DNA of 64,000 nucleotides from Leptolinea tardivitalis (lineage in GTDB: Bacteria > Chloroflexota > Anaerolineae > Anaerolineales > Anaerolineaceae): contig NZ_BBYA01000008.1 of the NCBI RefSeq assembly GCF_001050275.1, forward strand, positions 248,001-312,000, read 5' to 3'. Positions 48,530 to 63,747 of this stretch are shown here, one piece after another; position 1 is the stretch's first letter; each line of letters opens with the position of its first letter. The notes below the pieces were generated by a model that was given only the letters and a program-made list of their open reading frames with translations, was not told the DNA's origin and searched no databases. A program made the translations under genes and the position numbers.

Positions 48530-49102
48530 TTACTTATGTTTACTCTTCTCGTATTTCTTCGGATCAACTGAAGCGATATAAGGGAGATTGCGCCCTTTTT
48601 CATCTATATCCAATCCGTAACCCACCACAAAGACATCGGGGATGGAAAAACCCAGATAGTCAATAGGCACATCCACTTTATGGCGTTCTACTTTATCGAG
48701 CAGAGCGCATATTTTTAAACTGCGGGGATTACGGTCAAGCAGTAACTTGCGGACAGTGTTGATGGTGAATCCGGTATCCACAATATCATCAATCAAGATG
48801 ACATCCCAACCGGAAATGTTGGTCTTATGGTCAGAATCGATACGGACGAAACCATTGGTTTCTGAACCCGAATAGGAAGAAACAGACATGAAGTCCATGG
48901 TGAGTGGCATTTGAACTTTACGCATCAGGTCTGTGATAAAAACAACACTTCCGCGCAGGAGGCCCAATAAAAGAAGCTTCTCAGAATCACGATAATCGTT
49001 ATGGATCTGGTTGGCAATAAAAGAAATTCGTTTTTCGATTTCTTCCGGCGTAAAGAGAACCTTGCCAATAAAGTCATATGGAAAATCAAACTCGGAAGAC
49101 AT
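48530..49102 (-). CDS. hpt: Hypoxanthine phosphoribosyltransferase
   Basis: 190 residues. Transfers phosphoribose from PRPP to hypoxanthine (and guanine). PRPP-binding motif VILIDDIVDTGFTI near 110-122; LLGLLRGSVVFITDLMRK and the flexible-loop SSYSG segment are typical; the C-terminal VVGYGLDIDEKGRNLPYI carries the purine-binding aspartate. GGAG precedes the ATG. Co-transcribed with purA. Confidence 0.95.
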   Translation of the reverse strand: MSSEFDFPYDFIGKVLFTPEEIEKRISFIANQIHNDYRDSEKLLLLGLLRGSVVFITDLMRKVQMPLTMDFMSVSSYSGSETNGFVRIDSDHKTNISGWDVILIDDIVDTGFTINTVRKLLLDRNPRSLKICALLDKVERHKVDVPIDYLGFSIPDVFVVGYGLDIDEKGRNLPYIASVDPKKYEKSKHK

Positions 49103-49309
49103 TAAGTCCGCTCCAATTCAAGAGATGATCAAAAAACAAACCTATGATACAGCATTTTTATAAAAACGCGGCTGATTGGTTCGTTTTCTCTCTCTATAGT
49201 TTTATGAATATGATTATGAAAGGTCAGGGAATGAGAAAGGTAAGAACAACCTGTTAAAACAGGGCCGAAATGATATTGACAGGAATTCAATTCAAATTGA
49301 TTAGTGAAT

Positions 49310-49339
49310 AAAAAAGTACAATTCTAATCAGAATTGTAC
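49310..49339 (-). terminator. Terminator of tRNA-Val
   Basis: Perfect ten-bp stem GTACAATTCT/AGAATTGTAC (49316-49325, 49330-49339) followed on the minus strand by TTTTTTATTC, 14 bases past the tRNA end. Confidence 0.9.
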
Positions 49340-49352
49340 GAAGAGAGAAGTG

Positions 49353-49426
49353 TGGGCGGAACAGGACTCGAACCTGCGACCACATCGGTGTAAGCGATGT
49401 GCTCTAACCAACTGAGCTACCCGCCC
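49353..49426 (-). tRNA. tRNA-Val(UAC)
   Basis: Acceptor GGGCGGG/TCCGCCC, D arm with GCTC stem, anticodon stem CATCG/CGATG with loop CTTACAC giving anticodon UAC, T loop TTCGAGT; discriminator A, CCA not encoded. A TATAAT lies about ten bases upstream of its 5' end. Confidence 0.95.
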
Positions 49427-49489
49427 GGGAGTTCCTATTATACACCAGGGAATGATTATTTTCCTATATTTTTTCAAATATTTTTGAAA

Positions 49490-49515
49490 ACAGGGATGCC
49501 TTCGGGCATCCCTGT
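49490..49515 (-). terminator. Terminator of the mtnA-RLP-yjbQ-HAD gene set
   Basis: Eleven-bp stem ACAGGGATGCC/GGCATCCCTGT with a four-base loop, followed on the minus strand by TTTTCAAAA; six bases past the HAD-like gene's stop. Confidence 0.8.
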
Positions 49516-49520
49516 GAGCG

Positions 49521-50183
49521 TTAAATATTTGTTCTCGCCCCGGCTTTGGGATGGTAAATATCCTCATCGGTTTTCCATATTCCCTGGAGAGCCAGATCGA
49601 TTTTGAGCCTACGCGGGTATACGAAAGCCGTAGAGACCAATCCAAGTTTATGAAGGGCTACCGCCCGCATCTGGCGAGGGTCGATCAGAATACATTCGTC
49701 TATGTTGCGACCGGCTGCCTTCGGGATGGAATAGGCAATATCGGGTAGCATACGATTTAATTTGAATGGTGTTGTGAATATCAACCGGTTGGCAGGGAAA
49801 GAATTTTCGAGTTGCCAGCGTTTGATGAGACTATGGAACCAGGTTTCAGGGAGGTCAACAATCACACGGGTATCATTATCAGAGACGACATGCGTATAGA
49901 TATCGTGCAACGGTTTGTTCAGATTCGCCTGGTGGATGATTTCACTCTCAAGGTGATCTACAGTTAGGTTCACCTGGCAAAGTTCAACGGCTTTCTGGCA
50001 GAATTCATCTGAGGTCAACTTTCCTACAGACAGATCATCTTGAATAAACTGGATTTTTTCCTGCAAAGTTACTCTGGCAGCACCGGAAAGATCGGGACGC
50101 AAAATTTTCAATACAAGAGATGAGACGGTTTCGGTAAAAGCGCCGTCAAACCAGAAGAATACGGTTTCAAATTTTTTTGGCAT
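49521..50183 (-). CDS. HAD-superfamily-like protein with degenerate motif
   Basis: 220 residues. The layout resembles a Rossmannoid HAD hydrolase: an N-terminal strand FFWFDGAFTETVSSL where phosphatases have DxDGTL, a helical cap (about 25-95), a strand/helix VIVDLPETWFHSLI near 110, and a C-terminal ECILIDPRQMRAVALHKLG strand where the metal-binding acidic pair would be. Only one Asp remains in motif I, so normal phosphatase activity is doubtful. It starts one base after the yjbQ stop and is last in the operon. In methionine salvage a HAD phosphatase (MtnX) follows a RuBisCO-like enolase, a parallel that is suggestive only. Confidence 0.65.
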   Translation of the reverse strand: MPKKFETVFFWFDGAFTETVSSLVLKILRPDLSGAARVTLQEKIQFIQDDLSVGKLTSDEFCQKAVELCQVNLTVDHLESEIIHQANLNKPLHDIYTHVVSDNDTRVIVDLPETWFHSLIKRWQLENSFPANRLIFTTPFKLNRMLPDIAYSIPKAAGRNIDECILIDPRQMRAVALHKLGLVSTAFVYPRRLKIDLALQGIWKTDEDIYHPKAGARTNI

Positions 50184-50184
50184 T

Positions 50185-50604
50185 CTACTCTCCCATCACC
50201 TGTAAAACGATATACCGGGGGAGTCCTTCCGGCTGGCCGTTGGTTACCATGATTTCCTGATGGGTTCCAAGAACCATGGAGCCATCATGAATGGGAACAA
50301 CAATGGAGGTTGGCATAAAGGCAGCCCGTACATGAGCCGAACCATTGAAATCTAATTCTCGCCGGTGGTGAAGATATTTTCCATCTGAAGGGGCCATGGC
50401 TTCCAGAGCTCTTTCGATATCCGCAATGATGCCGGACTCATGTTCACCAATAAATATGGACCCGGTTGTGTGTTTGTAGAAACCGGTCAACTGGCCTTCT
50501 TTTACACCGGTTTCGGTCACAAAATCAGTCACCAGATGGGTGATGTTCTGAAGAGAAAAGCCGGGCCCCGGTGAAATTTCAAGCGTTTTTGTAAAGAAGT
50601 TCAT
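50185..50604 (-). CDS. yjbQ: YjbQ/UPF0047 family protein
   Basis: 139 residues, typical length. Family pattern seen: FTKTLEISPGPGFSLQNIT, GFYKHTTGSIFIGEHESG, YLHHRRELDFNGSAHVRAAFMPTSIVVPIHDGSMVLGTHQEIM. The conserved His/Glu/Asp residues form a metal-containing site; some members show weak thiamine-phosphate synthase activity, but the true role is open. It lies between the RuBisCO-like gene (22 bases upstream) and the HAD-like gene (1 base), so it is likely part of the same pathway operon. Confidence 0.92.
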   Translation of the reverse strand: MNFFTKTLEISPGPGFSLQNITHLVTDFVTETGVKEGQLTGFYKHTTGSIFIGEHESGIIADIERALEAMAPSDGKYLHHRRELDFNGSAHVRAAFMPTSIVVPIHDGSMVLGTHQEIMVTNGQPEGLPRYIVLQVMGE

Positions 50605-50626
50605 GGATGCACCTTTTAATTAATTC

Positions 50627-51766
50627 TCAAGATTCAAGAGATTCAAGAAAATTGTGGCTGTTGGCAATCAAATCGGGGCCGGCCTTATGCAAGCCGCCGC
50701 CCATCAAATAGATCATTTCATTGTCGTACACCTGTTTCATGTCAGGGACATTTTTCATCGTAATACCACCCCCGGCTACCGGGAAAATTGGTTTGATGTT
50801 GTACATCGGGTCTGCAGTGCCTTTTACAACTGACAGGCAATCTTCTTTTGTGCTGGCGAACCGGCTGCCAAAATTGATAAAGATGCTCATATCCGATCCC
50901 GCCAGACGGGCAATCTGCCCAAACCAGGTGTATGGTGAAAAACCTGCTGTGGGACTGACAACATAAGATCCAGAAAAGGAAGGATGGGTCATAATGGGTA
51001 AACCCAGTGAATCATCTTCTGACAACATGCGAACGGCATCCCAACCGGTATGAGCAGGGAGAACCATCAATCCGCCGCAGCCTACCTTTTTCGCGAAATG
51101 GGCATTTTCTAATAATTCGTCGGCACGGCCGGTAATATTGGGGAGAAAAATGCTTTTCCGGCCGGTTTCTTTATTGGCCTTTTCGATAGCTTCCTGGTTG
51201 TATTGAACCCGTTCCCTGAATTTAGAAAACGGCTGGTTGGAAATGCCATGGTCGTCTTTGATGATATCAATCCCACCTTTGGCAACCTGATAGCCCATTT
51301 CTGCCAGTTCTTTGTAACTCAACCCCATTGGTTTCAAGGCTGTACTTAATAATGGACGGTGGGGAACTCCCAGAATTTTGCGCAATCCTTCCCGTCCAAA
51401 ACGTGGACCGGAAAATTTGGCGGCCAGTGAAGGTGTGAGGTTAATTCGTTCCACCCGAATATTGGGCATCAAGCTGATGTTTCCCAACACAACATTTAAT
51501 AATTGGGCGATTGTGAAGGCAGTAATTTCCACTGCATAACTGATGGTGACATGGAAGTGATTTTCTCCCACCTGTTTGACATCTTCAACTTTGCCAACCA
51601 CCTGATCTTTGATTTCTCCTTCTGGCAGTAATTCGTATGGGAATTCGATGGTATCTTCTACGATGATGGCCGTGGTCATCTGATCGATTTCGGTACGAGT
51701 GCCAAAAAGGCTGTATTCGACTGTAAACCGATCACCTGATAAATGCAATTCCTGGTTTCCTTGCAT
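50627..51766 (-). CDS. RuBisCO-like protein (form IV)
   Basis: 379 residues with the RuBisCO large-subunit N-terminal and barrel domains. Substrate-loop residues partly kept: Lys in STALKPMGLS, the glycine-rich phosphate sites in FPVAGGGI and LMGGGLHKAGPD. The metal-site motif KDDE is KDDH here (Lys170-Asp171-Asp172-His173), loop 6 has no GKLEG-type lysine motif (NFGSRFAST instead), and the Ser of the SGG phosphate site is Gly. Carboxylase activity is therefore unlikely; related proteins act as enolase, isomerase or decarboxylase in methionine salvage, MTA-isoprenoid or apionate routes. AAGGAG precedes the ATG. Which reaction it performs is unknown. Confidence 0.9.
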   Translation of the reverse strand: MQGNQELHLSGDRFTVEYSLFGTRTEIDQMTTAIIVEDTIEFPYELLPEGEIKDQVVGKVEDVKQVGENHFHVTISYAVEITAFTIAQLLNVVLGNISLMPNIRVERINLTPSLAAKFSGPRFGREGLRKILGVPHRPLLSTALKPMGLSYKELAEMGYQVAKGGIDIIKDDHGISNQPFSKFRERVQYNQEAIEKANKETGRKSIFLPNITGRADELLENAHFAKKVGCGGLMVLPAHTGWDAVRMLSEDDSLGLPIMTHPSFSGSYVVSPTAGFSPYTWFGQIARLAGSDMSIFINFGSRFASTKEDCLSVVKGTADPMYNIKPIFPVAGGGITMKNVPDMKQVYDNEMIYLMGGGLHKAGPDLIANSHNFLESLES

Positions 51767-51995
51767 AATAAATTCTCCTTATGGGCTTGTAAGCCAGAAG
51801 TTGATAAATAGCTGGATCTATGTCTTTACCAATAAAACTAATTTTGACCTTGCTCAGAAAACAATGAATAAATAAAGTACCTATAAGAATCGTTCTCAAT
51901 AGATTCTTTGAATGTGGATATTTTTGCTATAGGAGAAGCTCCTTTCAAGATGAATGTATGGATAAATGCATCGAAAACTTATTGATGCGTTTGGG
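51767..51995 (-). other. Gap between the SorC-type regulator and the RuBisCO-like gene
   Basis: 229 AT-rich bases holding the Shine-Dalgarno site of the RuBisCO-like gene and several short dyads such as AGAACGATTCT (around 51889-51899). A promoter is likely but I cannot pick one confidently; no gene is seen. Confidence 0.5.
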
Positions 51996-52976
51996 TTAAG
52001 ACAATTCTAAAATTTCGGCCGCCGTATGTTCGTCTGTGATCAGCACGTTAAAATAACGAGCTTTTAAAGCTGCATGGATAGTCTTCACTTTTTCTTTACC
52101 GCCAGCTACCAGCACGCCCAGGTGAACTTTTTGAAGAGCTTCGAGCGATATGGATATGATTAATTCGTCATAGGGAACTTTTACCGGATTTCCGTCGATA
52201 TCAACGAAATGCCCCAGAATATCACCCACTGCGCCATTCTCAGAGAGATATCTAAGGGTCTCTTCCTGTAGACTTTTATTTTCATAAAGCAGGGCACCCG
52301 TATCTACTCCACCACAGCTCTGGAAAAGAATATCGCAATGATGGGCTTTTTCGAAAACCTGATTAAGAATGGGTTCAGATAATATGATCTCGTAAGCTTG
52401 TTTGCTTGAAACAACGGATGGTGCCAGTAAACGATATGCCCGCCCACCACAAATCTCAGCCATTTGTGACGTGATGTTCAATGAAATCATAGCAGACGAC
52501 GGTCCAGTAACTCCACCGATAATGTCGGTGAAATCACACGCGATCTTCCGTTTTGGACGGAAGTATTCAGGCATATAGTAAAGCGTACGGCTTAAGCCCA
52601 TCCCGATCGTCAAACCCGATTCCAGACGAGGTACAAGCCATTCACTGGCTCCTTTAGCCAACAAACGCAATTGCGATTGGCGTTGTTCCACACTCATCAC
52701 AACTTTGACATCTTTCAGGTTGTATTTATTCGACAGTGCAGATTCAAGTTCGAGGAGGCTGTTATTTTCGGATTGAATACTGATTTGTACCAATCCTTTT
52801 TCACGGGCTCGCTTTAGATATCGGGTAATTTTGATTCGAGACACATTCAAACGGTCAGCAATTTCTGCCTGGGTAAGGTCTTCCATGTAATATAGCCAGG
52901 CAATTCTGACCAGCAACTGGTCTTCACCAGATTGGTCAAACGAGGTAGATCTGTGGGTGTAATTGTTCATTGCCAT
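51996..52976 (-). CDS. SorC-family sugar-sensing transcription regulator
   Basis: 326 residues. N-terminal helix-turn-helix (about 20-60): RIAWLYYMEDLTQAEIADRLNVSRIKITRYL, then the SorC sugar-binding domain (about 65-320), related to glucosamine-6-phosphate deaminases, with GLSRTLYYM and the segment VDIIGG-like DIIGGVTGPSSAM. Such proteins bind a phosphorylated sugar and control the adjacent catabolic genes. The gene lies between mtnA (28 bases upstream) and the RuBisCO-like gene, so it most likely controls this locus; the effector is unknown. ATG at 52976 with GAGG upstream; an ATG two codons later is an alternative. Confidence 0.92.
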   Translation of the reverse strand: MAMNNYTHRSTSFDQSGEDQLLVRIAWLYYMEDLTQAEIADRLNVSRIKITRYLKRAREKGLVQISIQSENNSLLELESALSNKYNLKDVKVVMSVEQRQSQLRLLAKGASEWLVPRLESGLTIGMGLSRTLYYMPEYFRPKRKIACDFTDIIGGVTGPSSAMISLNITSQMAEICGGRAYRLLAPSVVSSKQAYEIILSEPILNQVFEKAHHCDILFQSCGGVDTGALLYENKSLQEETLRYLSENGAVGDILGHFVDIDGNPVKVPYDELIISISLEALQKVHLGVLVAGGKEKVKTIHAALKARYFNVLITDEHTAAEILELS

Positions 52977-53004
52977 GGCATATTTTCCTCGTTATTAAAA
53001 TCCA

Positions 53005-54093
53005 TCAGATTTTTTTACCTGATAACTTTTTATTAAAAATATCTTTCAGTGATGTGGTAAAGGGGGGCTGTGCAATGCCATATTCAGTAATAATGGCTGT
53101 GATGTTTGCATTTTCTGTCACATCAAAAGCCGGATTAAATACTTTTATCCCCTGCGGCGCCATTCGCTGAGCATACCATTTTTCTGTAATTTCCTCTGCC
53201 GGGCGTTGCTCAATATGAATATCTCTGCCCGTCTGACAATTCATGTCGATTGTAGAAGTAGGTGCGCAGACATAAAATGGAATGCCATAATAATGAGCCA
53301 GGATGGCTACACCGGATGTGCCAATTTTGTTGGCGGTATCACCATTGGCTGCTACACGATCACAGCCAACAAAGACGGCATTGACCCAACCATTTGACAT
53401 AACCGTTGCTGCCATGTTGTCACAGATGAGAGTGGCATCTATTCCAGCCCGGTTAAGTTCGTATGCCGTAAGACGGGCGCCCTGTAACAGTGGACGGGTT
53501 TCGTCTACAAAGACCTTAAAGTTGTATCCCTGTTCTTGCCCCAGATACATCGGAGCGGTGGCTGTTCCATATTTCACCGTAGCCAGTTGCCCTGCATTGC
53601 AATGAGTCAATAATCCCATTCCGGGTTTTAAAAGCGAGAGCCCATATTCACCAATAGCCCGGCAGGTATGAATATCTTCTGCCTTGATATCGTGTGCTTC
53701 CTGCAATAACGCGGTTTTGATTTTTTCCACTGAGGCAGATGCGTTCTTCATAAGGCAGGTTTCCATCCGGTCCAGAGCCCAAAACAGGTTTACAGCCGTT
53801 GGGCGGGATGAAGCCAGGTATTTTTTGACTTTAGAGAACTCAGCAAAAAACGCATCAAAATCTGTTGCGGAGCTTTGCTTAATTCCGAGATACAAACCAT
53901 ATGCAGCCGCTATACCGATAGCCGGTGCACCACGTACCTGTAAATCGTATATAGCCTGCCAAATTTCCGCCATCGTTTTTAGGCTGAGATAGACGACTTT
54001 GTTTGGTAAAAGTGTCTGATCAATGATCACCAGCGCATTCTTTTGATCATCCAATTCAACGGTTTCAAAATTCAATGATTGTAATGTATCCAT
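53005..54093 (-). CDS. mtnA: MtnA-type aldose-1-phosphate isomerase
   Basis: 362 residues from the ATG at 54093; a GTG further upstream (54144) overlaps the dyad and is less likely. MtnA converts 5-methylthioribose-1-phosphate to the ribulose form; relatives act on 5-deoxyribose-1-phosphate or, in archaea, ribose-1,5-bisphosphate. The active-site Cys164 (LLTHCNAGQLATVKYG) and Asp244 (VGCDRVAANGD) are present, as are VRGAPAIG, DETRPLLQGARLTAYEL and PFYVCAPTSTID. The THCNAG motif fits the MtnA type. No MtnK, MtnB or MtnD gene is adjacent, so the substrate may be another aldose-1-phosphate. Confidence 0.88.
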   Translation of the reverse strand: MDTLQSLNFETVELDDQKNALVIIDQTLLPNKVVYLSLKTMAEIWQAIYDLQVRGAPAIGIAAAYGLYLGIKQSSATDFDAFFAEFSKVKKYLASSRPTAVNLFWALDRMETCLMKNASASVEKIKTALLQEAHDIKAEDIHTCRAIGEYGLSLLKPGMGLLTHCNAGQLATVKYGTATAPMYLGQEQGYNFKVFVDETRPLLQGARLTAYELNRAGIDATLICDNMAATVMSNGWVNAVFVGCDRVAANGDTANKIGTSGVAILAHYYGIPFYVCAPTSTIDMNCQTGRDIHIEQRPAEEITEKWYAQRMAPQGIKVFNPAFDVTENANITAIITEYGIAQPPFTTSLKDIFNKKLSGKKI

Positions 54094-54134
54094 GAAAATT
54101 TCCGACGGAATAAGAGTTTTGTTTAAAAATGAAC

Positions 54135-54165
54135 TTATGTACACATATTGAGCATTTGTACATAA
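54135..54165. promoter_or_regulatory. Operator-like dyad upstream of mtnA
   Basis: TTATGTACA (54135-54143) and TGTACATAA (54157-54165) form a perfect nine-bp inverted repeat with a 13-base spacer, centre-to-centre 22 bp. The left part belongs to TGAACTTATGTACAC (54130-54144), a near copy of which precedes the solute-binding protein gene. Confidence 0.65.
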
Positions 54166-54378
54166 TAAGGGGTTTGTCTAAAGGTAACAAGTGACATTTA
54201 GCACTGTATTATGTATATAACTTTACTCCTGAAAGACTTTTTCGAAAATAGTTGGACTTTTAGATATATACAAAAAATGAAACCAAAGGCTTTTGAAATG
54301 ATTACATGCAAAATAACAAAATTAGAGAAAGAAAAAATACGAGTTTCTATTTGCATATAAAAAATATTACATTCGTAA

Positions 54379-54406
54379 TTGACAAAGTGATCAAAATCCC
54401 TATAAT
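54379..54406 (+). promoter_or_regulatory. Promoter of the DeoR-type regulator
   Basis: TTGACA (54379-54384), 16-base spacer, TATAAT (54401-54406): both hexamers perfect. The transcript leader would be about 95 bases. Confidence 0.8.
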
Positions 54407-54437
54407 CTAAAAATAGTGTTATGAAAGAAAGTTAAAT

Positions 54438-54453
54438 GCTTACGTAAGTAAGC
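54438..54453 (+). promoter_or_regulatory. Palindrome in the regulator leader
   Basis: GCTTAC-GTAA-GTAAGC, a six-bp inverted repeat with a four-base centre (CTTACGTAAG within it is itself palindromic), about 25-40 bases after the predicted transcript start. Operator for autoregulation, or an RNA hairpin. Confidence 0.45.
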
Positions 54454-54506
54454 TGAGATACAGATTAGCGATATATATCCCTGAAAACATTACTGGAAAA
54501 AAATTC

Positions 54507-55283
54507 ATGCGCAGTCTGGAAAACAACACTGAAGTACGGCGAACATCACTCGTAAGTTACGTCCTTGAGCGCGGATATGTATCTGTCCAGGATTTGAGTG
54601 ATCACTTCAATGTTTCCAAGGTGACAATTCGGGGAGATCTTACGGCTCTTGAAGAAGCCGGCGCCATTAAGCGGCAACATGGTGGAGCCACAATTCCAAA
54701 AGATGACCTGCCAGGAACGATTGCCTTTCAGGCCAGGGCGCGAATTGACCAGGAACAAAAACAACGGATTGGTGACCTGGCTGCCACACTGGTTCATGAT
54801 GGCGACTCGATCATGATTGATTCGTCAACAACGGGTTTGTACCTGGCACGAGCTCTTAAGAACAAAAAAGACCTGAAGGTGGTTACCAACGGAATTAACA
54901 CCTCTCTTGAATTATTGAAATCTTCCCATTCCGTTATCATGGTTGGAGGGATGATCAATGATCGTACATATGGAACCGTAGGACGCCTGGGACGAAACAC
55001 GTTATCTGAGATTCGGATAGGTAAGGCGTTTCTGGGCGCCAAAGGTGTGAGCATTCGCGACGGCCTGACAGATACAAATTTGTTGGAAGTTGAATTAAAA
55101 CAGGCTGTTATTGAAGTTTCCTCGCAACTGATAGCCATCGTAGATTCGTCCAAGTTCTCAACTATGGGAATTTCATCTTTTGCTCCAATTGAAAAAGTGT
55201 CAATTATTGTTACAGATTCGGGAGTGCCTATGGTTGAAAAAGCAAAGTTTGAAGACCTGGGAATTCAGGTGTTGGTGGCCTGA
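54507..55283 (+). CDS. DeoR-family transcription regulator
   Basis: 258 residues. N-terminal DeoR helix-turn-helix (about 10-60): LVSYVLERGYVSVQDLSDHFNVSKVTIRGDLTALE, followed by GAIKRQHGGA, and a C-terminal DeoRC sensor domain (about 75-235) with MIDSSTTGLYLARAL and FLGAKGVSIRDGLTDTNLLEVELKQA. DeoR repressors respond to phosphorylated sugars. It stands directly ahead of the transporter and kinase genes and is the likely local repressor. No strong Shine-Dalgarno sequence (GGAAAAAAA only). Confidence 0.93.
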   Translation: MRSLENNTEVRRTSLVSYVLERGYVSVQDLSDHFNVSKVTIRGDLTALEEAGAIKRQHGGATIPKDDLPGTIAFQARARIDQEQKQRIGDLAATLVHDGDSIMIDSSTTGLYLARALKNKKDLKVVTNGINTSLELLKSSHSVIMVGGMINDRTYGTVGRLGRNTLSEIRIGKAFLGAKGVSIRDGLTDTNLLEVELKQAVIEVSSQLIAIVDSSKFSTMGISSFAPIEKVSIIVTDSGVPMVEKAKFEDLGIQVLVA

Positions 55284-55352
55284 TTCGGCTGATTTTTTTC
55301 CCAAACTGGCTGTGTCACAAAAAAGTACCTGATAGTAAGTGATTAATATCAC

Positions 55353-55381
55353 TTGAAGAACGATTTTTTTACCTGTATTAT
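55353..55381 (+). promoter_or_regulatory. Promoter of the transporter operon
   Basis: TTGAAG (55353-55358), 17-base spacer, TATTAT (55376-55381), predicted start near 55388. Confidence 0.6.
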
Positions 55382-55398
55382 GAACTTTAGCACACCGA

Positions 55399-55414
55399 GT
55401 GAACAAATGTACAC
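55399..55414. promoter_or_regulatory. Operator-like palindrome downstream of the transporter promoter
   Basis: GTGAACAAATGTACAC is a 16-bp dyad (GTG, ACA, TGT, CAC symmetric). It starts about 12 bases after the predicted transcript start, a roadblock position, and shares 13 of 15 bases with the element before mtnA. Confidence 0.6.
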
Positions 55415-55591
55415 TCCAGACATTGTTTTCTGCTCTATGTGTTTTCCGAGGTCCTTTTACTGGTAGTGCATTACCCTCGATAAGCAAAAATACTGGTTTT
55501 CAGGAGGTAGGAAGAGTAAGAGATAAAAAATTGTTTACTGTAATTTTCATCGCCCTAGTAATTCCACAACCATTACACAAGAAGGAGTCCC

Positions 55592-57166
55592 ATGAACAAG
55601 CAAAATTTGTTCAAAATTGCTGGTTTGATTATGGTGTTTTCCATGTTATTGACAGCCTGTGGAACACCAGCCACCCCTGCACCTGCCGCTGCTGAACCTG
55701 CTAAAGCGGTAGAACCGACCAAAGCTCCTGAAGCTGCTGCTCCTGCTGAAGCGGCAAAACCGACCGAAGCTGCAGCTGCTGAAGCAGCGCCTGCCGCCGC
55801 CGATCATCCGTTGAAGGGACAGAAAATTGAGATGTCCATCCTCGGTATCGGTGGATGGGTTCCCTCCCGCCTGGGCGTGGACATGTCTCCTCTCTTCGCC
55901 GAATATGCGAAGAAAAACTACGGTTACGATGTAACCTTTACCTTCCAGGAAGCCCCCTTCTCAGATCTGTTCCAGAAGGCCAACGCCTCCCTGCTCACTA
56001 AGTCACAGGAATACAACATCATCATCTCTGACTCACAGTGGCTGGGCGCATTCGCGGAAGAAAAAGCCATCGTTAACATCAGCGACCTGATCAAAACTAA
56101 TCCTGAATTCGATGTCAAATGGGTCAGCCCGGTTGTAGCCGATGCCTACCAGGTATATCCTGATGGCTCTGGCATCAAATGGGGTCTCCCAGAAGAAGGT
56201 GATGTTGTCGTTCTGTACGTTCGGCAAGATATGTTCAGCGATCCAAAGAATATTGCCGATTACAAAGCCAAATACAATGCCGATCTGCCCCAGACCTTTG
56301 AAGACTGGGAAAAGGTTGACATGGATACCTTCAAGAACATCTCTGAATTCTTCACTCGCAAGGATCAGGGCCTGTATGGAACCGCTTATCAATACAGCAA
56401 GGTCTATGACTTCATGACCATGTTCTTGTATCCGTTCATGTTCTCCACCGGTGGTGATATCTGGGATCCCAAAGATGGCAAGATCTTCGGTATTCTGAAC
56501 AGCGATATCAATGCCAAAGCCATGGAAGCCAACCGTGAAATGCTGAAATACCAACCGGAAGGCGCCCTGCAGTATGACATTGCCGCTATCGTTGATGCCT
56601 TTACACAGGGTAAAGTTGCCACAGCTTTCCAGTGGGCTGCTGAAGGCTCTGCCATGATCCCCGATGCTCTTAAGGGTAAAGTTCTGGTTGTTCCCCCACC
56701 TGCTTTCAAACAGGCTGATGGCTCTCTGAAACGCGTTTACTCCGTTGGTGGACAGCCGTGGGTTATCAATGCCTACAATGATGACGCCCACATGCGCGTA
56801 GCACTTGACTTCTTGAAGTGGTGGTACTTACCCGAAACCCAGCTTGAATATGCCAAACGCGGCGGCAACCCCACCGATGCAGCTACCGTCAATGCTGCTG
56901 GTTTCGAAGATATTCAACCCTGGTTCAAAGCCTACAAGTACATGATGACCTCAGAACACACTCGTGACTTCTGGCACGAACCGACCTACTCCACCATGCT
57001 CTCCACCCAGCAGGAAGGCTTCACCGCCTATGCTTCTGGTCAGGTTAACGATGCGAAGAACACCCTCGATTGGATTGCCTGCGAACAGCAGAAAATCCAG
57101 TTCGAAGCTGGCCGCACCAAGATCGAACCCGATGCTTCCTGCAAGAATATCAAACTCGACAAATAG
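55592..57166 (+). CDS. ABC transporter solute-binding lipoprotein
   Basis: 524 residues. Lipobox LLTAC (Cys23) then a long Ala/Pro/Glu linker (about 25-70) and a two-lobe family 1-type binding domain of about 450 residues. AAGGAG precedes the ATG. Codons end in C far more often than in neighbouring genes, as expected of a highly expressed protein. It heads the importer genes; a 13-bp hairpin after its stop would protect the upstream mRNA. The large size and the companion genes resemble the binding protein of rhizobial glycerol importers (GlpV); the ligand is not evident from the sequence. Confidence 0.93.
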   Translation: MNKQNLFKIAGLIMVFSMLLTACGTPATPAPAAAEPAKAVEPTKAPEAAAPAEAAKPTEAAAAEAAPAAADHPLKGQKIEMSILGIGGWVPSRLGVDMSPLFAEYAKKNYGYDVTFTFQEAPFSDLFQKANASLLTKSQEYNIIISDSQWLGAFAEEKAIVNISDLIKTNPEFDVKWVSPVVADAYQVYPDGSGIKWGLPEEGDVVVLYVRQDMFSDPKNIADYKAKYNADLPQTFEDWEKVDMDTFKNISEFFTRKDQGLYGTAYQYSKVYDFMTMFLYPFMFSTGGDIWDPKDGKIFGILNSDINAKAMEANREMLKYQPEGALQYDIAAIVDAFTQGKVATAFQWAAEGSAMIPDALKGKVLVVPPPAFKQADGSLKRVYSVGGQPWVINAYNDDAHMRVALDFLKWWYLPETQLEYAKRGGNPTDAATVNAAGFEDIQPWFKAYKYMMTSEHTRDFWHEPTYSTMLSTQQEGFTAYASGQVNDAKNTLDWIACEQQKIQFEAGRTKIEPDASCKNIKLDK

Positions 57167-57197
57167 TTTCTCCTTTTATTGGTAGTTCTCGCAACAC

Positions 57198-57229
57198 CGC
57201 CTGGCAGATGGCCCTACATCTGCCAGGCG
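57198..57229 (+). promoter_or_regulatory. Intercistronic hairpin after the binding-protein gene
   Basis: Perfect 13-bp stem CGCCTGGCAGATG/CATCTGCCAGGCG with a six-base loop and no T run. It probably stabilises the binding-protein mRNA relative to the permease genes rather than ending transcription completely. Confidence 0.7.
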
Positions 57230-57382
57230 CAACAAAACAAACGCCGGTGACTTCCAAAGTATTAACGATGCTTTTTTGTTCTTTCATACTCCGTTCTTTT
57301 CATCGTTATTCATATTGATTCTTCTGGCCTCGAATATTCCGGGAAAAACCCGTGCAAAAGACCTTGTAATAGGAGGATTGTG

Positions 57383-58333
57383 GTGGAAAACGTTAGCGCC
57401 CTGCAGCGTACCGCTGGTAAAAAGCCCTGGCATAAAAAGCTAATGGACGGTTTTGATAATTCAAATCTGTTCCCTTATTGCTTGATCATTCCTGTTTTAT
57501 TGTTCTTCATAATCTGGAACCTGATCCCTACACTCTGGATGATCGGGATGAGCTTCTACAATTACGCCTTCACTACCGGCGCTCCTGAGAAGTTCAATGG
57601 CATTAGCAATCTGATAGATATCATGAACAACGATACCGTTTGGGGGAACCTGGGAAGAACTTTTACCTGGGTTTTGGCTACAACCGGTATTGAAACCGTA
57701 CTTGGAATTTTATTGGCTTTCCTTTTCTGGAACAGCGCCAAACTGCCCGGCCGACGTCTGGCTTTGACCTTACTGTTCACCCCCATGCTGATTGCCCCGG
57801 CTTCAGTCGGTGCTTTCTTCAAACTGCTTTACGAACCCGATTTTGGTGTAATTAATTATCTGCTGTCACTTTTCGGTATTGCAAAAATCAACTTCCTGGG
57901 TGATCTGAAATGGGCATTCCCTGCCGTTACTCTTGTGGATGTATGGATGTGGACGCCCTTCATGATCTTGATCACACTGGCAGCCCTGGGTTCCGTTCCG
58001 AAAGCAGAACTGGAAGCGGCTGAAATTGACCGCCTTCCCTGGACAAAGCGTCTGGTCCATATTATTTGGCCATATGGCAAGTTCGTTCTCATGCTTGGTA
58101 TCCTGCTGCGGACGATCGATTCTTTCAAAACGATGGATTTGATCTTCATGTTGACCCGCGGCGGTCCCGGCAACACAACGGAACTTGTAGCCATTGGGTT
58201 GTATCGAAAGGCATTTGAAGGCTTTACGATGGGTTGGTCTTCTACCCTCGCCGTAATCCTGCTCTTTATTGCCATTGCTTTCACGTCCGTTTACCTATAC
58301 ATCTTGAACCTCAGCAATGCTGAGAAGGAGTAG
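57383..58333 (+). CDS. ABC sugar/polyol transporter permease, first
   Basis: 316 residues with six membrane helices. Start chosen at the GTG at 57383, six bases after AGGAGG; a GTG three bases earlier is too close. The EAA-like cytoplasmic loop is ELEAAEIDRLPWTKRLVHIIWP (read in part). It is of the MalF/UgpA kind and would pair with the next gene's product in the membrane. Confidence 0.93.
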   Translation: MENVSALQRTAGKKPWHKKLMDGFDNSNLFPYCLIIPVLLFFIIWNLIPTLWMIGMSFYNYAFTTGAPEKFNGISNLIDIMNNDTVWGNLGRTFTWVLATTGIETVLGILLAFLFWNSAKLPGRRLALTLLFTPMLIAPASVGAFFKLLYEPDFGVINYLLSLFGIAKINFLGDLKWAFPAVTLVDVWMWTPFMILITLAALGSVPKAELEAAEIDRLPWTKRLVHIIWPYGKFVLMLGILLRTIDSFKTMDLIFMLTRGGPGNTTELVAIGLYRKAFEGFTMGWSSTLAVILLFIAIAFTSVYLYILNLSNAEKE

Positions 58334-58339
58334 ACAGAG

Positions 58340-59170
58340 ATGCATAAAGGATTCAAAACTACTCTGTATCACATCATTCTATGGATTGTGGCGCTTATTT
58401 TCTTTGCTCCAGTTTTCTGGATCATACTCTCAGCGTTCAAAACCAAAGACCAAATTCTGTCCATTCCACCGAAATGGTTTTTTACACCCACATTGGCAAA
58501 CTTTGTAGACCTGTTCACCCGCCCGAATGTTGGTACGTATATTCGTAACAGTCTATTGATTTCTGCCATTGCCGTTTTGATTGCCCTGGTGGTGTCATTC
58601 CTGGCGGCGTATGCATTTTCACGTTTCAAGTTGAAGAGCACCAGCCTGATTATGTTTTTCCTGCTCTCCATTCGTATGGTACCGGCTGCCGCCTCTGTAA
58701 TCCCTGTTTTTCTTATGTATGTGGCACTCGGATGGAAAGATACGTATCCTGGTATGACCCTTTTCTATGCCATGTTCAGTATTCCTTTCTCTGTCTGGAT
58801 TCTGAAAGGATTTGTGGATGGAGTATCTGAACGTTTTGATGAAACCGGTCTTGTGAATGGTGGATCCCGTCTTCATGTTCTGTTTGATGTTGTACTTCCA
58901 CAGGTACGTCCGGGCCTTGTGGCGGCATTCATTTTCAACATGGTCTTTGTCTGGAATGAATACATGTTCAACTACATTATTGGTGGAAAAACAACCACTA
59001 CTGTGCCGGTTGCATTGGTCACCTGGATGTTGAATCAGGGTGGAGTAGACTGGACGTTCATGGCATCACTGACTGTGGTCTTCATGATCCCGCCTATTCT
59101 GGCTGTTTACTTCTTCCAGAAGTACCTGTTAATCGGTATGACATTCGGAACCGTGAGAGGTGAAATATGA
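58340..59170 (+). CDS. ABC sugar/polyol transporter permease, second
   Basis: 276 residues, six membrane helices, MalG/UgpE kind, starting six bases after the first permease. The EAA loop reads DETGLVNGGSRLHVLFDVVLP (partly degenerate at its start). AAGGAG lies upstream of the ATG. Its stop overlaps the next gene by four bases. Confidence 0.93.
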   Translation: MHKGFKTTLYHIILWIVALIFFAPVFWIILSAFKTKDQILSIPPKWFFTPTLANFVDLFTRPNVGTYIRNSLLISAIAVLIALVVSFLAAYAFSRFKLKSTSLIMFFLLSIRMVPAAASVIPVFLMYVALGWKDTYPGMTLFYAMFSIPFSVWILKGFVDGVSERFDETGLVNGGSRLHVLFDVVLPQVRPGLVAAFIFNMVFVWNEYMFNYIIGGKTTTTVPVALVTWMLNQGGVDWTFMASLTVVFMIPPILAVYFFQKYLLIGMTFGTVRGEI

Positions 59171-59460
59171 ACCAACCGGTTAAGAAACCGTTTGCCTTTC
59201 GCTTTCAAACTGTCTTGATCGTTGTTTTGTTGATCAGCCTTGTTTTGATCGGGCAGCAATTCAGCAAAACGATCTATCAGATAGGACTGGTATTGTTGAT
59301 CGTCTCAACCTTTTTGCAGATCGGCGCCAGTAATATTGACCCCAAAGCAGATTTCAAAGGTTCGATGAAAGTAATGGGTATTGCCATGTCGATCGTTGTA
59401 GTTGTTTTTACGGCAGGCATCTTGTTGGTCCCTTATTTCCTCGATCTCGGGAAGAGGTGA
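59167..59460 (+). CDS. Small membrane protein of the importer operon (GlpU-like position)
   Basis: 97 residues with three hydrophobic segments (about 13-30, 35-53 and 68-92). The ATGA start overlaps the permease stop and AGGTG lies upstream, so synthesis is coupled to the permease. Rhizobial two-ATPase glycerol importers carry a small membrane protein (GlpU, DUF2160) in the same operon; whether this is a homologue cannot be judged by eye. Possible role: accessory subunit of the permease pair. Confidence 0.8.
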   Translation: MNQPVKKPFAFRFQTVLIVVLLISLVLIGQQFSKTIYQIGLVLLIVSTFLQIGASNIDPKADFKGSMKVMGIAMSIVVVVFTAGILLVPYFLDLGKR

Positions 59461-59464
59461 TATT

Positions 59465-60562
59465 GTGAATTCTGTAGAATTTAAAAACATCTCCAAGGTA
59501 TACGGTAAACAGACCTTATTAAAGGAAACAAGTTTTGCCGTTGAAGCTGGAACCTTTACTGTTATTTTTGGCGCTCCGGGATGCGGTAAATCGGTCATCC
59601 TTCGGCTGCTTACCGGGCTCGAAAAACCCACCAGCGGAGAGGTCTTCTTGCGAGGCGAAAATGCAACAAGTCTTTCAGCCGGAGACCGCAATATCGGTTA
59701 TATCCCGCAGTCATTTGCTCTCTATCCTCATTACAAAGTACGCGACAATATCGGGTATCCCCTGAAATTGATCGGCGCTCCGAAATCAGAAATTGACGAT
59801 GTGGTTGCCCGCACAGCTGAGTTATTGAGAATTACCCGACTACTCGATAAATACCCGAACCAGCTTTCTGGTGGTGAGAAACAGCGTGTGGCCATCGCCC
59901 GCGGCATCGCCAAAAAGACCGACATTTTTATCTTTGATGACCCTCTGACAGGTCTGGATTTTAAACTGCGTGAACAATTATTCGACGATTTGCGTTCCAT
60001 GCAGGAAACATTGAAAGCAACTTTCATCTATACCACGTCTGATCCTCTTGAAGCTTTAATGCTCGCCGAGAAGATCCACGTGTTGGATGATGGTAAGGTT
60101 ATTGAAGCCGGTAATATTGAAACTGTTTACCACCAGCCTCAGCATTTGAGAACTGCTTTGTTGCTTGGATTCCCCAAAATAAACACCTTTGATGGAACAT
60201 TAGAAAAAGACAGTAAATCAATCATTTGCAAGACCAAATTGTTCTCATTCCCGGTGGATCTCAATCAGAGTGAGAAATCGGACAACGACCAGGTTGTTGT
60301 GGCAGTCAGACCTCAGTATCTGAAACTGAATGAAAAACCTTCGGGCAAATCTATCTTTATTAATGCAAACATCACGTTAGCCGAAGATCTGGGCGGCGAG
60401 ATGGTCATTCATATGGATGCCGACGGTGTTTATCTGCTGGGTGTGGAAAGGCATGACAGCTTCTCGCAGCAGGAAGGTGCTGTTGAGATTGGTGTTGCCA
60501 ATCAAAATCTCATGGTGTTCGATGCAAAAACCTCCCGGCGCATCGGCCAAGGAGCAAATTAA
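59465..60562 (+). CDS. ABC importer ATPase with degenerate Walker B and switch motifs
   Basis: 365 residues from a GTG (GAGGTG upstream), four bases after the previous gene. Walker A FGAPGCGKSV near 36-44 and signature LSGGEKQR near 134 are intact. Walker B reads IFIFDDP, so the catalytic Glu is Asp, and the switch region reads TTSDPLEAL where MalK-type ATPases have THDQxEA, so the His is missing. C-terminal regulatory OB-like domain (about 235-365). It is expected to pair with the next gene's product; alone it should hydrolyse ATP poorly. Sequence type resembles GlpS of two-ATPase glycerol importers. Confidence 0.92.
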   Translation: MNSVEFKNISKVYGKQTLLKETSFAVEAGTFTVIFGAPGCGKSVILRLLTGLEKPTSGEVFLRGENATSLSAGDRNIGYIPQSFALYPHYKVRDNIGYPLKLIGAPKSEIDDVVARTAELLRITRLLDKYPNQLSGGEKQRVAIARGIAKKTDIFIFDDPLTGLDFKLREQLFDDLRSMQETLKATFIYTTSDPLEALMLAEKIHVLDDGKVIEAGNIETVYHQPQHLRTALLLGFPKINTFDGTLEKDSKSIICKTKLFSFPVDLNQSEKSDNDQVVVAVRPQYLKLNEKPSGKSIFINANITLAEDLGGEMVIHMDADGVYLLGVERHDSFSQQEGAVEIGVANQNLMVFDAKTSRRIGQGAN

Positions 60563-60564
60563 CC

Positions 60565-61656
60565 ATGTCTGATATTCGAATTGAGAAACTGCGTAAAGAA
60601 TACGGTCAGACTGTTGCTGTAAATGATGTCACAATTACGTTTCCTTCTGGGTCCGTTACCTGTCTTCTGGGTCCTTCCGGTTGTGGAAAAACCACGCTTT
60701 TAAGAATGATTGCCGGCCTTGAAGATGTTACTTCTGGTGAAATCTATTTTGGTGATCAAAAAGTGACAGATCTGGCCCCCAGCAAACGGAATATTGGTAT
60801 GGTATTCCAGTATCCGGTAGTTTACCGGGGGATCACCGTATATGAAAACATCGAATTACCCCTGCTTCAAGAGAAATTATCTGATCAGGAACGCCGAAAA
60901 CGCGTCATGGATGTAGTGGAAACACTGGGGTTGCAGAGCAGTATCAATAAAGATATTACCAAACTGGATAATGGAACACGCCAGAAAGTGGCTGTAGCAC
61001 GTACTGTCGCCCGCCAACCACAGATCATCTTGTTCGATGAACCGATCACCAACGTGGACGTGGCATCCAAAGATCAGTTGAAACAGGCTCTGAAAGATTT
61101 GACCCGCATGCTCAAACAAACCATCGTATATGTAACCCACGATCAGACGGAAGCCATGACTCTGGCAGACCAAATCGCATTGATGAAAGATGGTGTAGTG
61201 GTTCAACGGGATGCTCCCCGTTCTCTTTATAATCAGCCAAACGATGTATTTGGCGGCTGGTTCCTGGGAAATCCGGGTATGAACTTCTTTGATCTCTCTG
61301 CAAAAACGAACGGGCATGGAACTGAAATCCAAACAGGCCTGTTCAGCCGGCCGCTCATGATCGAAGGTCTGGAAAAAGATTCCAATATTAAACTGGGAAT
61401 TCGTCCAGAACAGGTGAAAGTAAGTGGAAAAAAGAACGACAGAATGGTGCAGGGTACTATCCTGCGGAAATCCATAGTTGTCGGCGGACAATACCTGGTA
61501 ACAATCAAATCTTGCGATCAAACATTTAAAGCCAAAGTTGAGCCGGAGACTGGATATGCCCTTAAAGATGAAGTCTGGTTTGAGATTCCTCTAAAAGACA
61601 TCATAATTTTCGGACCCGACGGTCACCGGTTGGATGTAAAGACATCATTGGCTTGA
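60565..61656 (+). CDS. ABC importer ATPase with degenerate signature motif
   Basis: 363 residues. Walker A LGPSGCGKTTLLR near 35-44, Walker B IILFDEP near 154 and switch VYVTHDQTEAM near 188-196 are canonical, but the LSGGQ signature is replaced by LDNGTRQ near 133-139. The C-terminal domain is of the MalK/UgpC type (about 235-363). It complements the preceding ATPase: its ATP site faces the other subunit's intact LSGGE. AAGGAG lies ten bases before the ATG. It resembles GlpT of two-ATPase glycerol importers. Confidence 0.92.
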   Translation: MSDIRIEKLRKEYGQTVAVNDVTITFPSGSVTCLLGPSGCGKTTLLRMIAGLEDVTSGEIYFGDQKVTDLAPSKRNIGMVFQYPVVYRGITVYENIELPLLQEKLSDQERRKRVMDVVETLGLQSSINKDITKLDNGTRQKVAVARTVARQPQIILFDEPITNVDVASKDQLKQALKDLTRMLKQTIVYVTHDQTEAMTLADQIALMKDGVVVQRDAPRSLYNQPNDVFGGWFLGNPGMNFFDLSAKTNGHGTEIQTGLFSRPLMIEGLEKDSNIKLGIRPEQVKVSGKKNDRMVQGTILRKSIVVGGQYLVTIKSCDQTFKAKVEPETGYALKDEVWFEIPLKDIIIFGPDGHRLDVKTSLA

Positions 61657-61693
61657 TCAATCTACTGAAAATCTCTGTAAAAGGAGCATAACA

Positions 61694-62659
61694 ATGGCAA
61701 AAGTAGTCAGCTTGGGAATTCATATCATTGATATTTTAGGTCGTCCGGTTACCGGCATTCCTGCAGGCCAGAATCTGGCCTTGTTGGAAGAGATCCGCAT
61801 CACAGTAGCCGGAACGGCTGCTGGTACCAGTGTAGATATGGCCAAATTGGGACTGGATGTTGTTGCCATGGGAGCCATCGGAGAAGATGAACTGGGCAAT
61901 TTCATGATTACAACGATGAATCGCTATGGTATTGATACATCCTGCCTGGTGCGGAAACATGGAGTACAAACATCGTCCACAATGCTCCCGATTCGCCCCA
62001 ACGGCGAGCGTCCGGCCTTGCATGTAGTGGGTGCCAACGGCGAATTGACATTGGATGACATCAATTGGGATGTGATTGCATCTGCCCAATTCTTGCATAT
62101 GGGTGGTTCATCTCTGCTCCCCAAGATCGATGGCGAACCCACCGCTAAAATTTTGAAATTTGCCAAAGAGCATAATGTTGTCACCACATTTGACCAGGTG
62201 GCTATTGCCCGTCCTGATCTTCTGGATATCATCGTTCCATGCATGCCATACACCGATTATTTTATGCCTGGTTTCGAAGAAGCTCAGATGATGTGCGGCT
62301 TGAAAGACCGGAAGGATGTCATCAAATTCTTCCTGGATAAAGGCGCAAAACACACCGTCTTTAAGATGGGTGGAGCCGGTTCCAGTATTGCCTGGTATGA
62401 CAAGAATGGCCATATCGAAGAGATTCGATTACCGATCCTTAAAGCCAATGTGGTAGATTCCACCGGCTGCGGTGACTCCTACTGTGCCGGCTTTATCAAA
62501 GGGCTCTCCCTGGGTTGGGACCTGGAAAAATGCGGCATGCTCGGAAGTGCCTGCGGCGCCCTGGTCATCACAGGATTGGGTTCAGATGCCGGAATCAAAG
62601 ATTTCGACAGCACTGTCAAATTCATGAATACGGCGGAAAAATTACCGTTACACGATTAA
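61694..62659 (+). CDS. PfkB-family carbohydrate kinase
   Basis: 321 residues. Ribokinase fold with the N-terminal TAAGTSVDMAKLGLDVVAMGAIGEDELG segment and the C-terminal signature VDSTGCGDSYCAGF near 253-266, where Asp near 259-260 is the catalytic base; the usual GAGD is GCGD. Strong AAGGAG precedes the ATG. It lies between the importer and DhaK, so it probably phosphorylates the imported sugar or polyol derivative or an intermediate. The exact substrate cannot be read from sequence. Confidence 0.93.
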   Translation: MAKVVSLGIHIIDILGRPVTGIPAGQNLALLEEIRITVAGTAAGTSVDMAKLGLDVVAMGAIGEDELGNFMITTMNRYGIDTSCLVRKHGVQTSSTMLPIRPNGERPALHVVGANGELTLDDINWDVIASAQFLHMGGSSLLPKIDGEPTAKILKFAKEHNVVTTFDQVAIARPDLLDIIVPCMPYTDYFMPGFEEAQMMCGLKDRKDVIKFFLDKGAKHTVFKMGGAGSSIAWYDKNGHIEEIRLPILKANVVDSTGCGDSYCAGFIKGLSLGWDLEKCGMLGSACGALVITGLGSDAGIKDFDSTVKFMNTAEKLPLHD

Positions 62660-62673
62660 TGGTAGGATGGGTG

Positions 62674-62704
62674 AAAAGCCGCGGTTCCCTAAGCCGCGGC
62701 TTTT
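62674..62704 (+). terminator. Hairpin between the PfkB kinase and dhaK
   Basis: Eleven-bp stem AAAAGCCGCGG/CCGCGGCTTTT (62674-62684, 62694-62704) with a short T run; it could partially terminate transcription ahead of dhaK. Confidence 0.6.
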
Positions 62705-62751: not shown

Positions 62752-63747
62752 ATGAAAAAATTCATCAATGATCCCTTCAATCTTGTAGATGAAATGTTGG
62801 ATGGTTTTCTGGCTGTTCATAAAAAGAAGATCCGAAAGCTGGAAGATGTGCGCTCCATAGCTCGCACCGATGCCCCGGTTGCGGGGAAAGTTGGGATTGT
62901 CAGCGGTGGAGGCTCAGGCCATAAACCGGCGTTCATTGGCTTTTGTGGAGAAGGCATGCTGGATGCCGTAGCCGTTGGAGAAATTTTTACTTCACCTCCT
63001 CCACTGGCCTGTTACGAAGCTGTCAAAGCTGCCAACGGTGGAAAGGGTGTTTTGATTCTGCTGGGGAATTATGCCGGTGATGTGATGAACTTCCAGATGT
63101 CTGCTGATCTCAGCGCGGCAGATGGAATCGAAGTAGAGCAGGTGATCCTGACGGACGATGTGGCTTCTGCTCCTAAAGGACAGGAAAACCGGCGTCGTGG
63201 CGTTTCGGGTGCTTTCCTATGCTGGAAAGTGGCTGGGGCCAAAGCGGCAGCTGGGGGCAGCCTGGCAGAATGTAAAGAAGTTGTTGAACGGGTCAATGCC
63301 AATACCCGCACCATCGGTGTGGCTCTTTCACCCTGTACGGTTCCAGCCAAAGGTTCCCCCACATTCGTGCTGGCTGATGATGAGATGGAATACGGCGTAG
63401 GTCACCACGGTGAACCAGGAACGGAACGGATCAAAATGATGTCTCTGGATGATACTGTCCAGAAGATGATGAATGAGATTCTTGTGGACCTCCCATTTAC
63501 AAAAGGTGACAATGTCGCGGTTGTGATCAATGGATTGGGATCAACGCCGCAGATTGAGCTGTACGCTGCTTTCCGAAAAGTAAAGAGTATTCTCGATACG
63601 GAAAAAATAAACATTGAGAATGCCTATGTGGGAGAATTCTTTACCGGGTTGGAAATGGCTGGATTCTCCATCACATTATCGAAACTGGATCCAGAGATCA
63701 AATCTTTGTTAGACGCCCCGGCCAGTACGCCCTGTTATACATGCTAG
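62752..63747 (+). CDS. dhaK: Dihydroxyacetone kinase subunit DhaK
   Basis: 331 residues, about 25 shorter than Escherichia coli DhaK. The substrate forms a hemiaminal with a histidine in the GHHGEPG motif (the second His, about 219); the catalytic Asp is in GNYAGDVMNF near 105-112; SGGGSGHKPAFIGF near 50 binds the ligand. AAGGAAG precedes the ATG. With DhaL it would phosphorylate dihydroxyacetone or another short ketose such as erythrulose. The phosphate donor (ATP or a PTS-linked DhaM) cannot be told from the window. Confidence 0.95.
   Translation: MKKFINDPFNLVDEMLDGFLAVHKKKIRKLEDVRSIARTDAPVAGKVGIVSGGGSGHKPAFIGFCGEGMLDAVAVGEIFTSPPPLACYEAVKAANGGKGVLILLGNYAGDVMNFQMSADLSAADGIEVEQVILTDDVASAPKGQENRRRGVSGAFLCWKVAGAKAAAGGSLAECKEVVERVNANTRTIGVALSPCTVPAKGSPTFVLADDEMEYGVGHHGEPGTERIKMMSLDDTVQKMMNEILVDLPFTKGDNVAVVINGLGSTPQIELYAAFRKVKSILDTEKINIENAYVGEFFTGLEMAGFSITLSKLDPEIKSLLDAPASTPCYTC

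Follow-up and report, generated by a model that had tools for sequence, protein, structure and literature searches.

A candidate SorC-type tandem operator shared by two promoters at a RuBisCO-like protein locus of Leptolinea tardivitalis

Do two divergently placed gene sets, one around a RuBisCO-like protein (RLP) and one for a transporter with associated kinases, answer to the same regulator? The question arises in a 64-kb stretch of the Leptolinea tardivitalis genome (hereafter the window), where a sequence-only reading pointed to a similar 15-base element upstream of mtnA, at the head of the minus-strand RLP operon, and upstream of the binding-protein gene that heads the plus-strand transporter operon. 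It proposed that a common regulator, probably the DeoR or the SorC protein encoded there, links the two sets. We examined the element itself, its distribution with each of the two regulators in related genomes, and its occurrence at RLP loci more widely. The features of the locus are collected in Table 1.

Table 1. Predicted sites and genes of the locus, in window coordinates
Feature	Position	Strand	Details
220-aa protein	49521..50183	-	kept beside yjbQ in L029 and G064
YjbQ family protein	50185..50604	-	TIGR00149
RuBisCO-like protein (RLP)	50627..51766	-	PF00016; 229 bp after sorC
SorC-family regulator, proposed reader of both operators	51996..52976	-	PF04198 191.6 bits, residues 71-324
mtnA-type isomerase, first gene of minus-strand operon	53005..54093	-	TIGR00512 435 bits (cut-off 279)
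mtnA-sorC-RLP operon tandem operator (putative)	54130..54162	-	dyads 54130-54143 TGAACTTATGTACA 13/14 and 54149-54162 TGAGCATTTGTACA 13/14, 19 bp
Predicted mtnA promoter	54162..54190	-	TTGTTA, 17, TATTAT; 9/12 consensus match
Second shared element GTGCTAAATGTCAC	54191..54204	-	CRP-like dyad, center ~-42 from predicted start
DeoR/GlpR-family regulator, AgaR-like	54507..55283	+	PF08220 65 bits, PF00455 157 bits
Second shared element GTGATTAATATCAC	55339..55352	+	28 nt to first dyad, as at mtnA
Predicted transporter-operon promoter	55353..55381	+	TTGAAG, 17, TATTAT; 9/12 consensus match
Transporter operon tandem operator (putative)	55381..55413	+	dyads 55381-55394 TGAACTTTAGCACA 11/14 and 55400-55413 TGAACAAATGTACA 14/14, 19 bp
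Extracellular solute-binding protein, first gene of transporter operon	55592..57166	+	PF01547
Two ABC permeases	57380..59170 (57380-58333, 58340-59170)	+	PF00528
Two UgpC/MalK-type ABC ATPases	59402..61656	+	
PfkB-family sugar kinase	61694..62659	+	PF00294
DhaK	62752..63747	+	PF02733

The window SorC has the composition of its family, an N-terminal HTH (several HTH models match residues 24-72) followed by a Sugar-bind domain (PF04198), and its best match of solved structure is Bacillus subtilis DeoR (8r7y), full-length, with an E-value of 2.8e-36. The RLP falls below cut-off for the mtnW, type III RuBisCO and OiaX models, and the 220-aa protein is tentatively called HAD. In the transporter operon the first ATPase probably starts downstream of the listed TTG, and beyond the window the same strand continues with DhaL, a PRK02399-type protein and one more ORF. 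The DeoR/GlpR-family gene has its own promoter with a 12/12 consensus match (54379-54406). A palindrome in its leader, GCTTACGTAAGTAAGC (54438-54453), which was flagged as terminator-like for the minus strand as well, is possibly this protein's own operator; as a DeoR operator linking the two operons it was rejected, there being no second copy in the window at up to three mismatches. Elsewhere in the same genome (G000:C8:643958-646108; L028, L192, L197) a second RLP (49%) is followed directly by an MtnA-like gene (34%), and this locus contains no tandem scoring at least 20 in 19.9 kb.

A putative tandem operator at two promoters

Both 15-mers are in place, TGAACTTATGTACAC at 54130-54144 and TGAACAAATGTACAC at 55400-55414, with 13 of 15 positions identical. 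Also present as described are the perfect 9-bp inverted repeat before mtnA (TTATGTACA, 54135-54143, and TGTACATAA, 54157-54165), which sits within a longer 12-bp pair (92%), and the 16-bp dyad GTGAACAAATGTACAC (55399-55414), in which six of eight pairs are complementary by eye. The 13/15 match alone is at chance level, since it was reached in 122 of 300 dinucleotide shuffles of both intergenic regions (413 and 308 bp). A single box is not striking either: at up to one mismatch it has 17 matches in the organism's whole genome, against 11 for the reversed control. The alignment behind that match had crossed boxes: in plus-strand order, the left-hand box at one promoter was matched to the right-hand box at the other; in register, 54129-54162 aligns with 55380-55413 at 25 of 34 positions, a value reached by one of 300 shuffles.

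The unit at each promoter consists of two 14-bp dyads of consensus TGWACAWWTGTWCA placed 19 bp apart (54130-54162; 55381-55413). Every position was scored against TGWACAWWTGTWCA, with a maximum of 14 per dyad and 28 per tandem. The tandems total 26/28 on the mtnA side and 25/28 on the transporter side, and the runner-up among all pairs spaced 14 to 44 in the 64 kb scores 23; none of 400 shuffles of its own region reached the score at either promoter. Because none of 10 further boxes in the same genome (at up to one mismatch) has a 19-bp partner box above 8/14, the own-genome regulon is, by this partner-box criterion, predicted to be the two window promoters. Judged from its sequence, the shared element makes up one half of a tandem operator, which we regard as a real regulatory site of the known SorC type in a new place. 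One regulator common to both gene sets is thereby supported, through a larger and better defined site than was first described.

The two putative operators stand in the same register to their promoters: in each case the final T of the predicted -10 TATTAT is the opening T of the first dyad, and TATTA or TATAA lies immediately 5' of the dyad in 9 of 28 aligned sites. The promoter predictions are weak, being consensus matches only, with eight promoter-like sites in a region where 4.5 would be expected. An Rfam scan of 49000-64000 for RNA elements gave a tRNA and nothing else. The mtnA operator is bordered on both sides by a 19-nt direct repeat (84%; 54109-54127 and 54164-54182), which was dismissed as a link between the operons, no further copy being found at fewer than three mismatches.

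Distribution of the operator and of its candidate readers

The sequence-only reading had proposed a motif scan at orthologous intergenic regions, and the outcome of that scan was split in a way that fits SorC: upstream of mtnA the motif is absent from two same-genus genomes that have no close SorC and present in one that has it. The latter, G064 (about 90% complete), encodes a SorC 86% identical to the window SorC within an operon headed by genes for an RbsB-like binding protein, an RbsA-like ATPase and a permease; mtnK (TIGR01767, 430 bits), mtnA, a further binding-protein gene, sorC, RLP, yjbQ and the 220-aa ORF follow. Since sorC lies in the middle of this operon, a site was expected before the transporter genes, and a tandem was found there at the operon head (TGAACATTTGTTCACAACCTGTTCTTTTGTACA, 26/28), the contig's sole tandem scoring at least 20 (the next best in 13.7 kb scores 19, and the first 12 kb reach at most 20). 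In G065 and G066, also of the same genus, mtnA is 75 and 77% identical and the SorC relatives are weak (E 1.3e-40 and 6.8e-42); no tandem was found in 19.9 kb of each, the best pairs scoring 19 and 20. No box at up to two mismatches occurs in G066, nor in 21 kb of L029, a Leptolinea MAG locus (mtnA 75%, RLP 77%). Because L029 and G066 carry mtnA and have no box, the site goes with SorC and not with mtnA, and conservation with mtnA as such was rejected. Neither of the window's two operons contains mtnK; a PfkB kinase (61694-62659) is found where G064 has mtnK (L170 8094-9326).

Both predicted promoters have a second element in common, GTGNTWAATRTCAC, near -42 as counted from a predicted, unmapped start. 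AGTGNTWAATRTCACTTG is found in both window promoters and in that of G064, with an identical distance of 28 nt to the first dyad; the copies in the genus are those of Table 1 and one in L194, upstream of 2495. The best three-way 17-mer is identical at 14 of 17 positions, which none of 2000 shuffles matched. At up to two mismatches this 17-mer has six matches in the own genome (control, one), of which the best two are the window promoters; another, C10:481002, adjoins a TTG-16-TATAAT promoter of an unrelated gene. The element looks like a class II CRP-type site, which would have a GTGA-type dyad centered near -41.5. Proteins with HTH_Crp_2 are present, and the one examined (233 aa, L229) carries HRVTVTKA, unlike the recognition helix of Escherichia coli CRP with its RETVGR.

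Across the family we defined a close SorC group of 15 loci (E up to 1.4e-60, window included), beyond which lie many weaker paralogs. The operator lies at the promoter of the regulator's own or a linked operon in 13 of these 15 loci as a 19-bp tandem of at least 21/28 (12 of 14 without the window), and in 12 of 15 at 22/28 or more (11 of 14 without the window). In most of them the tandem stands immediately before sorC and outscores all others in about 20 kb, and tandems at other spacings are almost absent. For 13 of 16 tested promoter regions the score was reached by none of 400 shuffles, and for G120 by one of 400; the regions were chosen by us as operon promoters, and for the 13 other loci are the region upstream of sorC itself. 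A 19-bp tandem is absent from two loci with close SorC, G101 C10 and G108, where 160 and 87 of 400 shuffles reach the scores; in both, strong pairs spaced 17, 18 or 20 bp occur at other places in the locus, which we read as a putative spacing variant. Among more distant SorC loci a tandem of at least 22 occurs in 2 of the 17 examined; a distant SorC locus, L208, has a 19-bp tandem of 24, and 19-bp tandems are also found in L154 and L168.

Two further observations concern SorC neighborhoods. A DhaK relative (34-37%) lies about 6-7 kb from sorC in 10 of 16 of them (L171-L177, L179, L180, L182), comparable to the DhaK of the window's transporter operon; in L171 an epimerase and an ascorbate-type PTS subunit accompany it. 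In another SorC clade a long inverted repeat of a different kind, TATACTTTTGT...ACAAAAGTATA, adjoins the gene (L155 2575-2607, L160 2572-2604), perhaps as that clade's own operator.

The DeoR/GlpR-family protein is distributed differently. At E ≤ 1e-50 it is found in 1 of 147 family genomes, the window's own; weaker relatives (35-44%) occur in 43 of 301 phylum genomes at E ≤ 1e-40, own included. G064, which has both tandem and SorC, gave no DeoR match at E ≤ 1e-50, an absence that its completeness of about 90% makes less than absolute. The tandem occurs without this DeoR in G064 and at the promoters of 12 further genomes or loci, so DeoR does not occur everywhere that the site does. Of the two regulators originally offered, SorC is therefore retained, its close orthologs being tracked by a tandem that resembles a solved SorC-family operator, and DeoR was rejected as reader of the shared site on its phylogenetic distribution. 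Orthologs of the window binding protein were found neither in the other three genomes of the genus nor in 399 other phylum genomes (E ≤ 1e-80). The transporter side of the two-operon link rests on one genome.

The tandem at RLP loci more widely

A set of 80 RLP loci was to serve as plain background for the tandem, and failed as such: tandems at 18 bp proved enriched there. Sites scoring 22 or more number 17 at this spacing and 0-7 at any other, and the 7 found at 26 bp partly coincide with the 18-bp ones. By tblastn a SorC was found in six of the 80 loci. The tandem is present in five of these six (the sixth is a 3.7-kb contig), compared with 6 of the 74 others. Tandems of 18 bp occur, with another SorC clade, at RLP operons of other phyla. 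The tandems of L045 (19 bp) and L065 (18 bp) lie immediately before an operon of transketolase-N, transketolase-C, RLP and SorC; in L084 the tandem is one gene further upstream of such an operon; and in L037 it precedes transketolase-RLP, microcompartment-type genes and an ABC set. Gene names in these loci and in L050 were read by eye from the sequence. L037 (tandems at 3531, 3630, 3767 and 7954) and L050 (1486, 1590, 3675 and 7942) come from two Anaerolineaceae and combine the RLP with a split transketolase and microcompartment-type genes; each locus has four 18-bp tandems, apparently at three promoters.

We searched for the L084 SorC in 19 genomes, covering 20 of the 80 RLP loci (11 with site, L049, L029 and 7 without). 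Six of the 19 genomes match at E ≤ 1e-80, each with an 18-bp site. L030, L048, L107 and L073 have a site and no L084-type SorC at this threshold; L107 is adjoined by another SorC, and the L073 site (score 22) is probably due to chance. Of the seven loci without site, four are in genomes without a match at E ≤ 1e-20 and three in genomes with weaker matches.

A tree was built from 43 SorC proteins, and the window SorC belongs there to a 15-row group (support 99), 14 of whose rows are labeled 19 bp, and the 18-bp rows form a separate group, except L107. The spacing labels change six times on the tree, compared with a mean of 18.6 for shuffled labels, and none of 200 shuffles was as low. Labels were set by us before the tree was built, with L208 and L210 kept as "none" despite 19-bp pairs of 24 and 22; rows L148 and L162 are in the wrong frame and have absurd branches, and G101 C10 is absent from the tree. 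We propose, tentatively and with somewhat less than even confidence, that SorC control through a tandem TGAACA-type operator is an old, recurrent partner of RLPs in Chloroflexota, Acidobacteriota, Spirochaetota and Bacillota, at RLP operons that often include a split transketolase, with SorC encoded in the operon or elsewhere in the genome and with two spacings (18 and 19 bp) that follow two SorC clades. If so, SorC would have as its ligand a sugar phosphate that is particular to the RLP step, and the extent of the regulon would mark out the genes of the RLP pathway, here with the PfkB-DhaKL transporter set replacing mtnK.

Proposed control and comparison with known systems

Very probably, SorC reads both tandems and acts as joint repressor of its own mtnA operon and of the transporter operon. 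A SorC tetramer (a dimer of dimers) would place one DNA-binding dimer on each dyad and, without ligand, cover both promoters from -10 to about +26, blocking transcription of the mtnA-sorC-RLP-yjbQ-220 aa operon and of the transporter-PfkB-DhaKL operon. A phosphorylated sugar of the pathway would free SorC, so that uptake and breakdown would be induced together. Since the SorC of G064 appears to govern an mtnK-mtnA operon, a phosphate of the methylthioribose or 5-deoxyribose type, or else what the RLP step produces, is the probable ligand. A candidate activator, possibly CRP/FNR-like, may act on the second element near -42, which we suggest more weakly than repression by SorC.

Three other explanations were weighed. 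Similarity by chance between two AT-rich intergenic regions would account for the 15-mer pair, so readily matched by shuffles, and for single boxes barely above the genome control; the tandem, however, exceeds its shuffles, and the window consensus finds sites at promoters of independent SorC orthologs, which leaves chance a next to negligible probability. We consider it very unlikely that the DeoR/GlpR-family protein reads the shared element and controls both sides. Its gene is located between both operators, and MtnR, which represses the E. coli 5'-deoxypentose operon, is annotated as DeoR-family in the part of the source consulted (PMC12632272). Yet none of the 146 other family genomes, the tandem-bearing G064 (about 90% complete) included, has a match to this DeoR at E ≤ 1e-50, and the tandem stands at sorC promoters in genomes without such a DeoR, these loci having been taken for their SorC.

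The remaining explanation accepts that SorC binds both sites and holds that the one on the transporter side is accessory, or a leftover that arrived with the gene set, without true co-regulation. That the left dyad of this operator is weak (11/14) and that the transporter set is confined to one genome in the searches made would both suit it. The -10 register and the distance to the second element are the same as at mtnA and in G064, however, and fit a maintained promoter; we judge a leftover or accessory site very unlikely, if slightly less so than reading by DeoR.

Joint repression by SorC would supply one regulator and an exact operator for the gene set around an RLP, and would join to it a distant-looking transporter and kinase set. 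Shared control would in turn be evidence that the transporter, the PfkB kinase, DhaKL, MtnA and the RLP share one substrate, a reading that makes the RLP pathway testable, and the operator consensus with its 18/19-bp spacing rule could be used to search for additional RLP regulon members. A literature search found no paper joining SorC with methylthioribose, and, among the matches listed for RLP with SorC, transketolase or microcompartment, none on such control.

Control of mtnA is known from E. coli, where the mtnK-mtnA-ald2 operon has the repressor MtnR and a CRP site near the -35 (PMC12632272), a layout like the one proposed for the window's mtnA operon. The system differs in its repressor, MtnR being of annotated DeoR family and without a defined operator in the consulted part of that source, and in that no RLP is involved.

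The proposed operator is closest to those of SorC-family repressors, which, in the portion of PMC11229326 drawn on for this comparison, bind as tetramers to two half-operators. B. subtilis CggR, of another subclass, has a 45-bp operator that heads its own operon and whose two dyads, by our own count on the printed sequence, are about 20 bp apart, as in the window; it differs in its GGGAC half-sites, its winged-helix domain and the position of the operator, +32 to +77 downstream of the start (PMC11229326). In B. subtilis DeoR, R34 and R39 contact bases (PMC11229326), and we place them in an SR....R pattern of that protein (SRPTVSR). The window SorC keeps this pattern in its recognition region as SRIKITR, with the mapping onto R34/R39 being our own; a pattern-based listing of HTH regions missed 12 of 31 rows, and more rows do not have it.

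B. subtilis DeoR differs from the window system in its effector, deoxyribose-5-phosphate, and in its target genes (PMC11229326). Its operator overlaps the promoter from -60 to -21, whereas the window sites lie over the -10 and the predicted start, and its dyads are 22 bp apart, compared with 19 bp in the window. The DNA-binding domains of a single tetramer occupy its two half-operators, with half-site TTGAACA / TGTTCAA, one dimer of domains on each (PMC11229326). Scored with the window consensus, the two dyads of this operator reach 12/14 and 13/14, and the build is the same: two dyads about two helical turns apart, as the SorC family has them and as both window sites have them at 19 bp.
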